Of a stretch of DNA of 64,000 nt, positions 58,348 through 61,660 are shown in pieces. A model generated the notes under the pieces. That model was given only the letters and a program-made list of their open reading frames with translations, had not been told where the DNA came from and did no database searches. The DNA comes from Burkholderia mayonis (GTDB lineage: Bacteria; Pseudomonadota; Gammaproteobacteria; Burkholderiales; Burkholderiaceae). Position 1 is the stretch's first letter; each line of letters starts with the position of its first letter. The position numbers and the translations under genes are program-made. The DNA is taken from contig NZ_CP013386.1 of the NCBI RefSeq assembly GCF_001523745.2, positions 1,612,001 to 1,676,000 of the forward strand, written 5' to 3'.

Positions 58348-58386
58348 GCGCGCCGGGCGCCGCGCGCGCGTTCTTTCGCGCGCGGC

Positions 58387-58489
58387 GCCAGTTCGCCAGT
58401 TCGCCAGTTCGCCAGTTCGCCAGTTCGCCAGTTCGCCAGTTCGCCAGTTCGCCAGTTCGCCAGTTCGCCAGTTCGCCAGTTCGCCAATT
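58387..58489. repeat. 8-bp VNTR, GCCAGTTC x12 plus a partial unit
   Basis: Twelve perfect octamers run from 58387 to 58482, then a degenerate unit GCCAATT. A second short repeat, ATCAGCCG x2, follows at about 58492-58507. The array lies between the ends of the convergent LysR and cupredoxin genes. It is outside both coding regions. Confidence 0.97.
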
Positions 58490-58525: not shown

Positions 58526-58951
58526 CTACCCGACGACGAGCACGCCGTTCATCGTCTCGTGCCCGGAGCCGCAGAAGATGTCGCACAGGAACTGAACCGT
58601 TCCCGCGTCGCCCGCCTGCGCGGCGACGCGCACGACCGCGCCCGGCGGCACGTCCGCACGCACGCCGTACTGCGGGATCGAAAAGCCCATCACGGTGTCC
58701 TGCGCGGTCAGTTCGAACACGACCGATTCGTGCGGCGCAAGCGCGATCCGGTCCGGCGTGAACACGAAACGCCGCGCGTGAACCTTGATCACGCGCGGCT
58801 CGGCGGCGCGCACGCGCGACATGTCGACGCCCGCGAGCGCGGCAAGCGCCGCACCGCCCGCGATGAGCAGCCAGCGGCGGCGCGATGCGGACGCCGCCGT
58901 CGCCGGCGTCCGGCCGCGAAGCGCATGCGGATCGAAAAAAAAATGGCGCAT
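58526..58951 (-). CDS. Cupredoxin with CuA-like motif
   Basis: A 141-residue single-domain cupredoxin anchored by one N-terminal transmembrane or Tat/Sec-type segment (about 25-42, RRRWLLIAGGAALAAL). The copper loop CDIFCGSGHETM matches the CuA pattern C-x3-C-x3-H-x2-M. The position of the first CuA His is Met in DTVMGFSIPQ, so a standard binuclear CuA site is doubtful. It may instead bind one Cu. GAGGAG sets the start. It follows the phosphoesterase by 10 nt in one operon. Confidence 0.88.
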   Translation of the reverse strand: MRHFFFDPHALRGRTPATAASASRRRWLLIAGGAALAALAGVDMSRVRAAEPRVIKVHARRFVFTPDRIALAPHESVVFELTAQDTVMGFSIPQYGVRADVPPGAVVRVAAQAGDAGTVQFLCDIFCGSGHETMNGVLVVG

Positions 58952-58961
58952 CGCTCGCTCC

Positions 58962-59882
58962 TCAGACGGCTGGTTGCGGTTGCTTCGCGCCGACGGGCAT
59001 CTCGGTCAGCGCAAGCGCGCGCGTCGCGTCGCCGACGCGCACCTCGCGCCAGCCGAGCCCGTGATACGGCGCGGCGGCGTCCCACGGCACCGGCAGGCGC
59101 TTGTCCTGCGAGCCGGGCGCGGGCAGCGGGAACATCAGCGAGCGCGCCGCGTGATGCGCGATATGGCCCGTCATCGCGTGATGTTCCTGGTGGATGTGCC
59201 CGTAGAACACGGTGACGTTCGGATAGGGCATCAGCACGTCGACGACCTTCGCGCCGTCGCGCGTCGCCCAGTCCCACTGCGGCGCGAGATCGAAGAGCGG
59301 CCGGTGTGTGAACACGACGATGCGCGCGTCCTTCGGCTGCCGCGCGAGATCCTGCGCGAGCCAGTCGATCTGCGCATCGCCGACGCGGCCGGCCGGATCC
59401 GACACGTTGTCGACGACGACGAAATGCACGCCCTTGTGATCGAACGCGTAGTGCGTGTCGCCGAAGATCTCGCGGTACGCGGCGCCCGCGTCGAGACTCG
59501 CGTCGTGCTCGCCCGGCATCAGGTGGAGCGGCTTCACCTTCAATTGCGCGACGATCGACTGGAACTGCCGCATCCGCTCGCGGCGCTCGGCGGGATCGTC
59601 GGTCGTGTGCGTGAGGTCGCCCGTGAACATCACGAAGTCGGGCGCGACGGGCAGCGCGTTGACCGCTTCGATTGCCTTCGGCAGCGTGCCGTGCGCGTCG
59701 GGGTTGATCGCGGGGCCGGTGAAGCCCCAGTGCGCGTCGGAGAGCTGGGCGAAGAAGAAATCGGCGCCGCCGTCGGCGGCGAGGCTCCAGCCGGGCAGCG
59801 CGGACGCGAACGCGACGCCGCCTCCACATGCGGCGAGGCGCAGGAAATCGCGGCGCTTCAGGGACGGGGTCGGGTTCGGCAT
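58962..59882 (-). CDS. Tat-exported metallophosphoesterase
   Basis: A 306-residue calcineurin-like phosphoesterase. A twin-arginine signal (LKRRDFLRLAA) is followed by a cleavage region near SLAA. Metal ligands are in AQLSDAHWG, FTGDLTHT, PGEHDA (His in place of the usual Asn of GNHD), VVFTHRPLF and YGHIHQEHH. Export folded via Tat fits a metalloenzyme. The substrate is unknown. It is first in an operon with the cupredoxin and divergent from the ECF sigma operon, with a matching promoter. Confidence 0.9.
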   Translation of the reverse strand: MPNPTPSLKRRDFLRLAACGGGVAFASALPGWSLAADGGADFFFAQLSDAHWGFTGPAINPDAHGTLPKAIEAVNALPVAPDFVMFTGDLTHTTDDPAERRERMRQFQSIVAQLKVKPLHLMPGEHDASLDAGAAYREIFGDTHYAFDHKGVHFVVVDNVSDPAGRVGDAQIDWLAQDLARQPKDARIVVFTHRPLFDLAPQWDWATRDGAKVVDVLMPYPNVTVFYGHIHQEHHAMTGHIAHHAARSLMFPLPAPGSQDKRLPVPWDAAAPYHGLGWREVRVGDATRALALTEMPVGAKQPQPAV

Positions 59883-59918: not shown

Positions 59919-59945
59919 TACCGTCGCCGCGCGGCGAGTATTCCC
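59919..59945 (-). promoter_or_regulatory. ECF-type promoter of the phosphoesterase-cupredoxin operon
   Basis: On the minus strand GGGAATA (59945-59939), 16 nt, then GGTA (59922-59919). It matches the divergent promoter of the sigma operon. The -10 is about 37 nt ahead of the phosphoesterase ATG. Confidence 0.7.
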
Positions 59946-59976
59946 GGTTTATTTTTCGTCTCCGCGCGCGGGCGGC

Positions 59977-60003
59977 GGGAATAAACTGGATCGATGGGCG
60001 GTA
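59977..60003 (+). promoter_or_regulatory. ECF-type promoter of the sigma/anti-sigma operon
   Basis: GGGAATA (59977-59983), 16 nt, then GGTA (60000-60003). It has the same words and spacing as the opposite-strand promoter 32 nt away. Autoregulation by the encoded sigma is the likely reading. Confidence 0.7.
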
Positions 60004-60090: not shown

Positions 60091-60792
60091 GTGGGTCAAT
60101 TCGGCCGGATGGTCGACGAACGTGACGCGGGCGACATGGACGATACGGGCGACGTGGCGGCGCGCGGCGAGCGCTTCCGGGCGCTCGCGCTGCCGCATCT
60201 GGACGCCGCGTACAACCTCGCGCGCTGGCTGTGCGGCAACGCGAGCGACGCGGATGACGTCGTGCAGGAGGCGTGCATGCGTGCGTTCCGCTTTCTCGAT
60301 TCGTGCCGCGGCGACAATGCGCGGCCGTGGCTGCTGACGATCGTGCGCCACACCTGGTACACCGAATGGCGGCGGCGGGCGAACGCGCGCGAAGTCGCGT
60401 CGGCCGACGCGCTCGACGCCGCGGATTCGCCGGACGACTGGCACCCGGCGGCCGAGGATCCGCTCGCGCTCCTGATGCGCAGCGAAGATGTCCACCGCGT
60501 GAACGACGCGCTCGCGAAGCTGCCGCCCGAGTATCGCGAGGTGCTCGTGCTGCGCGAAATGGAGGATTTGAGTTACCGCGAGATCGCGGCGGTTACCGAT
60601 GTGCCCGTTGGCACGGTGATGTCGCGGCTCGCGCGGGCGCGCAGGCGTCTCGCCGCGTTGCTCGGCGACGCGCACGACGTGCCGGCGCCGCGCGCTGGCC
60701 GCGCGCAGGCGCAGGCGAGCGCGCGCGCGGCGGCTGGCGAAGGGGGCGCGCCGCCGTCCGGAACCGCATCGGAGGCCATTGATGGACTGTAA
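60091..60792 (+). CDS. ECF-family RNA polymerase sigma factor
   Basis: A 233-residue group IV sigma factor. Region 2 (about 25-100) has YNLARWLCGNASDADDVVQEACMRAFRF, and region 4 (about 140-190) has LPPEYREVLVLREMEDLSYREIAAVTDVPVGTVMSRL. A Gly/Ala-rich tail follows. Start GTG 60091 is supported by GGGAGG at 60081-60086; ATG 60109 is a weaker alternative. The stop overlaps the anti-sigma start by 11 nt, so the pair is translationally coupled. Likely target promoters are its own and the divergent phosphoesterase promoter. Confidence 0.92.
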   Translation: MGQFGRMVDERDAGDMDDTGDVAARGERFRALALPHLDAAYNLARWLCGNASDADDVVQEACMRAFRFLDSCRGDNARPWLLTIVRHTWYTEWRRRANAREVASADALDAADSPDDWHPAAEDPLALLMRSEDVHRVNDALAKLPPEYREVLVLREMEDLSYREIAAVTDVPVGTVMSRLARARRRLAALLGDAHDVPAPRAGRAQAQASARAAAGEGGAPPSGTASEAIDGL

Positions 60793-61660
60793 CGAAACGC
60801 GCGCGCTGCTCGACGCGGACGTCGACCGCGAACTCTCCGCGCCCGACGCGTTGCGGGTCGAGCGGCACGTCGACGGCTGCGACGCGTGCCGCCTCGAGCG
60901 CGACCGGCTCGTCGCGCTCGGTCGGGCGGTGAGGCAGGCGGAATACCATCGCGCGTCGGACGCGCTGCGCGCCCGCATCGTCGCGGGATTGCCGGTTCCG
61001 GACGCGCCGCTTCCGGACGTCAGGGCTCCTGATGGCGGCCCGCCCGCCGCGCGAACATGGCGCTGGTTCAGCCGGCCTGGCCCCCGCGGCGCGCCCGCCG
61101 GCCCGGCAGTCCGCTGGCCGCGTCCGCGCGCCGCCGCGCTGCCCGGCCTCGGCTGGGGCGTCGCATTGGCGATCGCGCTTGCCGCGGCGGCCGGCCTCAC
61201 GGTCGGCACGCGCCGCGCGGCGACCGAGCGCATCGTCGACGAAATCGTCGCGAGCCACGTGCGGGCCGGCCTGTCGTCGCGGGACATCGACGTGATCTCG
61301 ACCGACCGGCACACGGTCAAGCCATGGTTCAACGGGCGCCTCGACTACGCGCCGCCCGTCGTCGACCTGAGCGCAAGCGGCTTCACGCTCGCGGGCGGCC
61401 GGCTTGATTACATCGGGCAGCGTCGCGTCGCGGTACTCGTGTACCGCTACCGGCAGCACGTGATCGACGTCTACGTGCGGCCGTGGCCGTCGGGCGAGGG
61501 CGGGGCGGCGCCTTACGCGACCGTGTCGCAGGGTTACGCGCTCGACCGCTGGGACGCGGCGGGCATGACGTGGTGGGCGGTGACCGATGCGGAGCCGTCC
61601 GCGCTCGCGGCGTTCAGGACGGCGCTGACCGCGCGCGTCGCGGCGCCGCGAACCGAATGA
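60782..61660 (+). CDS. Zinc-finger anti-sigma factor, membrane
   Basis: A 292-residue single-pass anti-sigma factor. The N-terminal zf-HC2/ZAS domain has C-x-n-H-x3-C-x2-C (ERHVDGCDACRLE), then a Pro/Arg-rich linker. One transmembrane segment lies near 124-142 (WGVALAIALAAAAGLTVG) and a soluble C-terminal domain, probably periplasmic, follows (YRQHVIDVYVRPWPSG, VSQGYALDRWDAAGMTWWAV). GGAGG at about 60771 precedes ATG 60782. The zinc/thiol site suggests redox or metal release of the sigma; the signal is unknown. Confidence 0.9.
   Translation: MDCNETRALLDADVDRELSAPDALRVERHVDGCDACRLERDRLVALGRAVRQAEYHRASDALRARIVAGLPVPDAPLPDVRAPDGGPPAARTWRWFSRPGPRGAPAGPAVRWPRPRAAALPGLGWGVALAIALAAAAGLTVGTRRAATERIVDEIVASHVRAGLSSRDIDVISTDRHTVKPWFNGRLDYAPPVVDLSASGFTLAGGRLDYIGQRRVAVLVYRYRQHVIDVYVRPWPSGEGGAAPYATVSQGYALDRWDAAGMTWWAVTDAEPSALAAFRTALTARVAAPRTE

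Follow-up and report, generated by a model that had tools for sequence, protein, structure and literature searches.

The 64,000-nucleotide (nt) stretch of Burkholderia mayonis contig NZ_CP013386.1 analysed here (the window) contains two gene pairs that point away from each other across a gap of 208 nt, between the start codons of a phosphoesterase gene (ATG, 59882) and an extracytoplasmic function (ECF) sigma factor gene (GTG, 60091). The ECF gene (60091..60792, plus strand) encodes a protein with Pfam sigma70 regions 2 and 4 that scores 364.1 bits with NCBIfam model NF009185 (PRK12533), above the curated cut-off of 248. It is followed by an anti-sigma factor gene (60782..61660, plus strand) that starts with the ATG at 60782, overlapping the ECF stop codon, and whose product combines a zf-HC2 domain, a long helix with a probable transmembrane segment and an RseB-C-like outer domain. 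On the minus strand lies, according to Pfam, alignments and a fold model, a calcineurin-fold phosphoesterase (58962..59882) with a twin-arginine start, in which GEHD stands in place of GNH[D/E] (Glu125, codon 59508-59510). A CuA-like cupredoxin gene (CDIFCGSGHETM; 58526..58951, minus strand) begins 10 nt after the phosphoesterase gene, and the two probably share an operon. An earlier note on this DNA, made from its letters, had described the four products as a twin-arginine phosphoesterase, a cupredoxin, an ECF sigma and a zinc anti-sigma factor, and our gene calls agree.

The divergent gap carries GGGAATA-N16-GGTA exactly on both strands (59977-60003, plus; 59919-59945, minus) with mutually unrelated spacers, just as the same note had reported. 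We annotate the plus copy as a putative ECF-type promoter of the sigma/anti-sigma operon (-35 GGGAATA at 59977-59983, spacer of 16, -10 GGTA at 60000-60003) and the minus copy as that of the phosphoesterase-cupredoxin operon (-35 at 59939-59945, spacer of 16, -10 at 59919-59922). No further exact copy is present in the window, where none is expected (100 shuffles), and across the 6.59-Mb genome these two are the only exact copies, with none for the reversed-pattern control. GGGAATA by itself is at chance level in the window (2 observed versus 1.14 expected, with at least 2 reached in 33 of 100 shuffles), indicating that the signal resides in the spacing, the GGTA and the location. We also considered a larger regulon in this genome and rejected it, since the relaxed pattern GGAATA-N15-17-GGT is near background (31 sites versus 21 for the reversed control, taken as totals only).

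With respect to conservation, our comparison covered 18 gaps that separate an ECF gene from a divergent type-A phosphoesterase (at least 53% identical to that of the window); these are the gaps met among the fetched loci, apparently one locus per genome, with one (L074; L and G numbers are our handles for loci and genomes) partly masked. Their sources include Burkholderia, Paraburkholderia, Cupriavidus, Herminiimonas, Ramlibacter and other Burkholderiaceae. Cupriavidus campinensis, a soil relative from another genus, carries all four genes and an exact motif on each strand. On the ECF strand the motif has no mismatch in 14 gaps, one in 3 and two in 1. The earlier note had proposed conservation in orthologous gaps as a check, and on the enzyme strand this was borne out by 11 exact copies and 6 with one mismatch, but not by L064, which has three. 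When the enzyme strand was set against 500 shuffles of each gap, 17 of the 18 gaps were matched by at most 2 shuffles. Both exact copies lie at the same 58-nt offset in three genomes including this one, with differing enzyme-side spacers. Because the motif copies have been kept across the 18 gaps, the promoter pair looks functional.

The ECF promoter motif is exact at 35 of 38 named Burkholderia and Paraburkholderia ECF loci (exceptions L048, L051 and L058). Upstream of these 35 promoters a run of at least 4 T occurs within 40 nt in 33, ending exactly 20 nt upstream of the -35 in 29, compared with a background of 342 in 10870 windows. In the window this place is taken by the tract TTTATTTTT (59948..59956, no strand assigned), which stops 20 nt short of the ECF -35 and lies immediately ahead of the opposite one. 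Since the tract also abuts this second -35, it could serve both promoters as a shared UP-like element.

Presence of the ECF sigma (E 1e-30 or better) was scored in 65 Burkholderia genomes, of which 57 have it and 8 do not. We observe a close co-occurrence with an intact enzyme: 57 genomes have both, none the ECF alone, 1 the enzyme alone and 7 neither (Fisher P = 1.1e-8, a value that ignores shared ancestry). The enzyme-only genome, G319, is an assembly 82% complete; its enzyme is the divergent type B, 34-43% identical to type A, and it has no ECF of the family. Of the 65 genomes, 7 have an intact type A, 1 (G181) a broken one and 51 type B; no genome has both and 6 have neither. In 49 of the 51 type-B genomes (exceptions G302 and G223) an exact motif is found 185-229 nt ahead of the type-B homology match, and in 43 the ECF gene is solely on another contig, indicating that the motif was retained, or acquired anew, independently of the sigma gene. 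A second family ECF lies within about 2.5 kb of type B in 7 of the 51 (G199, G223, G240, G263, G306, G320 and G322), and none of 34 type-B promoters has a T or A run upstream. The "self-contained four-gene module" of the earlier note is thus an apt description of this genome but not of the genus at large, most members of which encode the enzyme at a site apart from the sigma gene.

Four loci (L048:5824-5850, L051:5824-5850, L054:5822-5848 and L059:5823-5849) have GGGAATG-N16-GGTA, one mismatch from the motif, on the enzyme strand; no type-A phosphoesterase was found at these loci despite the persisting promoter-like copy. The enzyme-strand copy in the L063 gap has two mismatches, and none better than four mismatches was found in the L032, L034 and L044 gaps. 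We read this distribution as a stepwise replacement of one enzyme version by the other, in three apparent stages whose order we infer: type A beside the sigma gene, then a sigma gene that retains a leftover second promoter, with type B accompanied by an ECF of its own, and then type B alone, away from the sigma gene.

Further afield, a profile search that does not rely on the motif recovered the enzyme in 15 of 299 Pseudomonadota genomes (E 1e-30 or better), 13 of them strong matches. An ECF relative is within the locus in 12 of the 13 strong matches (12 of all 15), and the loose promoter pattern stands ahead of 9 of the 13 strong-match enzymes (mononucleotide shuffles, 10 of 3380 stretches).

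What the exact motif precedes was examined at 111 distinct sites, a non-random set made up of all 97 same-genus sites and 14 hand-picked from other genera after removal of six duplicates. Downstream we find an ECF or relative at 42, type-B phosphoesterase at 34, type A at 5, cytochrome b561 at 9 and an unknown protein at 2. At the nine cytochrome b561 sites, 30-36 nt separate the end of the motif from the open reading frame (for example, L120:5004 (+), and L121 and L129:5188 (+)). A second mirror-image pair occurs at another Burkholderia locus (L113:5390-5482, L115:5276-5372, L119:5141-5237), exact in L113 and L115 and with one looser copy in L119; it faces an unknown protein with a neighbour that is a weak match to DNA alkylation repair, and the ECF query found no ECF relative in the 10-11 kb of these loci. 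Three identical GGGAATA-N16-GGTA copies are present in G310 (C2:2557414, C2:2563438 and C3:126491), a genome in which the ECF was not found, and are probably a repeated element outside this regulon.

Taken together, we are confident that one ECF sigma is served by two back-to-back promoters in the gap, and that a periplasmic signal passing through the anti-sigma factor would free the sigma so that both operons fire. Sequence comparison shows directly that the promoter pair exists, that it is conserved and nearly confined to this site in the genome, and that ECF and enzyme co-occur; together these findings support the assignment of the plus copy to the ECF/anti-sigma operon and of the minus copy to the phosphoesterase-cupredoxin operon that the earlier note had made. 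Membrane sequestration, release and autoregulation of the sigma would follow the pattern of known ECF biology.

Several observations weigh against this wiring being uniform or the motif being fully specific. The enzyme strand of L064 is no better than chance (104 of 500 shuffles as good). In the strong-match loci of the 299 Pseudomonadota genomes, the loose pattern precedes only 6 of 12 ECF genes, which together with the 9 of 13 enzymes suggests that distant groups differ in their wiring; the other six ECF genes follow the enzyme on its own strand and so may be co-transcribed with it. A second ECF of the family is present in 10 of the 65 Burkholderia genomes, where cross-talk is possible, and 19 of the 111 exact sites precede none of the query genes. 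Finally, the genome scan for the motif that the earlier note had suggested did yield an excess, 147 exact sites in the 65 genomes, but the reversed pattern gives 60, so that part of the sites are chance. Such chance copies, the shortness of the motifs and the background frequency of GGGAATA alone would fit the view that the two motifs are accidental or some non-promoter feature, such as an operator. The exact spacing, the exclusive location and the conservation despite differing spacers make that view hardly credible.

Another sigma factor, for example a paralogous ECF, could in principle read one or both promoters while the window ECF reads something else. This genome does have 8 further ECF-like matches (E 0.001 or better), and ECF26 members of Sinorhizobium activate one another's promoters according to the accessible text of PMC6180224 and PMC6527743. 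The next best match to the window ECF in the genome, however, has an E of 1.2e-21, GGAATA-N15-17-GGT[AC] is absent from the two best paralogue loci (L133 and L134), and across the genus the motif tracks the presence of the window-type ECF, all of which renders reading by a paralogue improbable. We therefore retain the window ECF as the sigma factor that would read both promoters.

A Burkholderia thailandensis protein shares 93% identity with the phosphoesterase of the window, whose GEHD motif is rigidly kept and marks the linked enzymes recovered here. Among 43 distinct aligned proteins of at least 240 amino acids, the window's included (shorter fragments were dropped), 42 have this motif, the exception being an unlinked GNHD paralogue of the same genome (L142). 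It is also found in all 120 of the best 120 of 7965 database homologues (close relatives, 68-93% identical, counted without regard to ECF linkage) and in 14 of the 15 enzymes from the 299 Pseudomonadota genomes (exception L221). In alignments the GEHD glutamate takes the place of Asn97 of Rv0805 and of the GNHD asparagine of GpdQ. This asparagine is a metal ligand. The predicted model of the enzyme (mean predicted local distance difference test score, 74.8) has the GpdQ/Rv0805 fold. The calcineurin-like fold of class III phosphodiesterases is thus present, and their GNH[D/E] metal-ligand motif is absent.

The cupredoxin label given earlier stands as far as the fold is concerned, but the best Protein Data Bank sequence matches are CuA domains, not blue copper proteins. 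The two Cys, the His and the Met of CxxxCxxxHxxM are present, and the first His ligand is replaced, with Met standing where the CuA chains 2lln and 2cua have His. Of 14 distinct aligned cupredoxins, 12 including that of the window have Met at this position, and the other two, from L085 and L089, have His; in both of these loci a c-type cytochrome gene precedes type A (backed by a Pfam match in L089 alone). Among 66 partly overlapping enzyme loci, 63 have a cupredoxin gene on the enzyme's strand no more than 1.5 kb away, comprising 39 of 39 loci nearer type B and 24 of 27 nearer type A; it is missing at L219, which is ECF-linked, and at L221 and L222, where no ECF was seen. The partner of type A is CuA-like, and that of type B matches plastocyanin/azurin and cupredoxin families (six loci scanned). 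No natural enzyme-cupredoxin fusion appears in the Pfam annotation of the best 120 of 7965 homologues, a weak test.

The locus is flanked by a LysR gene and a large gene on one side and a further gene on the other; we take the large gene to be glyoxylate carboligase-like and the one on the opposite flank to be rpsF. All three are again neighbours of the ECF in most fetched Burkholderia loci of sufficient length, indicating that the chromosomal place is conserved, and a megablast of the locus against a plasmid collection gave no match. Between the convergent LysR and cupredoxin genes the octamer CGCCAGTT is repeated 12.6 times in perfect tandem (58386-58486), likely a variable-number repeat.

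In the anti-sigma factor, helix 124-166 is predicted to cross the membrane, and H160, H178 and H227 of the outer domain are invariant in 19 of 19 aligned rows (numbering from TTG 60779). The predicted fold of the C-terminal domain appears to resemble those of RseB/MucB C-terminal domains, a match tied in Z with TM1622 (1vr8). At rest, the anti-sigma factor would hold the sigma at the inner membrane; its RseB-C-like domain would read a periplasmic signal and the sigma would be freed. Polymerase carrying it would then fire both promoters, which may use the central T tract in common, with the ECF-side promoter producing more sigma and anti-sigma as feedback and the enzyme-side promoter supplying the exported GEHD phosphoesterase and the CuA-like cupredoxin. 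As to the signal, periplasmic copper or redox/sulfur stress would be our guess; between the copper, thiol and phosphoester stress that the earlier note had suggested, the comparisons draw no distinction.

The phosphoesterase and cupredoxin could instead be part of the sensing circuit, acting on or reporting to the outer domain of the anti-sigma factor, as RseB does for RseA, and closing a homeostatic loop. We consider this unlikely: 51 of the 65 Burkholderia genomes carry the divergent type-B enzyme, there just 38-43% identical, with a plastocyanin/azurin-type cupredoxin at L112, and a specific contact with the anti-sigma factor would not readily tolerate such a change of both proteins. Other candidate targets, such as cytochrome b561, also exist. 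Our preference remains for enzyme and cupredoxin as output of the freed sigma. A tentative extension, somewhat less doubtful than the sensing circuit though still clearly short of even, is that the module is a dedicated periplasmic system whose GEHD enzyme is not a phosphodiesterase. The fixed Asn-to-Glu exchange would then create a new metal site working with an electron carrier (a cupredoxin of CuA-like or blue-copper type, or in some cases a cytochrome c), the anti-sigma factor with its integral RseB-like sensor would respond to the same chemistry, and two enzyme versions would have been swapped under one promoter code.

The comparisons thus point to a real, conserved regulatory module whose wiring they explain well. 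For an ECF branch that has received little study, they yield a predicted regulon and a promoter code of sufficient specificity for targets to be found largely by pattern, and they tie this branch to a rigidly conserved, unusual phosphoesterase variant and a copper protein. With a predicted core regulon of one enzyme-cupredoxin pair, what such anti-sigma factors sense becomes testable, and the three-stage swap in Burkholderia, if its order is as proposed, would be a natural experiment in regulon rewiring.

Among known systems, class III cyclic nucleotide phosphodiesterases and glycerophosphodiesterases (Rv0805, GpdQ) differ from the window enzyme, which has Glu for the GNHD Asn (N97 of Rv0805), a twin-arginine start and a cupredoxin gene nearby. 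The cupredoxin has the CxxxCxxxHxxM copper site in common with the CuA domains of cytochrome c oxidase subunit II and NosZ but is, unlike them, free-standing and predicted to be exported. The anti-sigma factor appears to recall the RseB/MucB of the RseA/MucA-sigmaE system in the predicted fold of its C-terminal domain, with the difference that here the RseB-C-like domain is built into the anti-sigma factor itself.

The closest parallel is with the ECF26 systems, represented by RpoE1, RpoE4 and RpoE6 of Sinorhizobium meliloti and SigE of Starkeya novella (PMC3511301, PMC6180224 and PMC6527743, cited here for their accessible text). We found no paper on the module itself in the open-access literature, a search that did not extend to subscription papers; the main text of PMC3511301 and PMC6527743 does not contain the word phosphoesterase, nor does the accessible text of PMC6180224 contain metallophosphoesterase. 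In our sigma tree, the RpoE6-type and DUF305-linked references, assigned from gene context (RpoE6-type via a divergent S8 peptidase), form a separate clade (100/100), and the paralogue at L133 sits on a long branch inside the group; RpoE1, RpoE3 and RpoE4 are not in this tree. The RpoE6-type sequence, falling outside the clade of the window ECF, was therefore rejected as proof of ECF26 membership, and its anti-sigma factor lacks the HTVKPWF stretch. A second ECF-like gene of this genome (G000:C2:1293697-1294131) groups with the RpoE6-type and DUF305-linked ECFs (100/100), and GGAATA-N15-17-GGT[AC] is absent from the 3.4 kb examined around it. Unlike in ECF26 systems, no sulfite dehydrogenase is among the four genes, and the -10 is GGTA where Sinorhizobium promoters have GTC or GTT. 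Sulfite is reported as the signal for RpoE1 and RpoE4, with preliminary data for rpoE3 and rpoE6 as unresponsive (PMC3511301). The ECF26 consensus of -35 GGAATA and -10 GT (PMC6180224) is present in both window promoters, as is the anti-sigma architecture of an N-terminal anti-sigma domain, a helix that would span the membrane and a periplasmic C-terminal domain; sigma/anti-sigma operons and a small regulon are also common to both. On these grounds the window regulator is ECF26-like, and we use the term in that sense only. RpoE1 and RpoE4 are autoregulated, as we propose for the window ECF, rpoE6 is divergent from a target gene, and RpoE4 likewise controls a periplasmic enzyme together with a copper protein (sorT, a cytochrome c and azu2).
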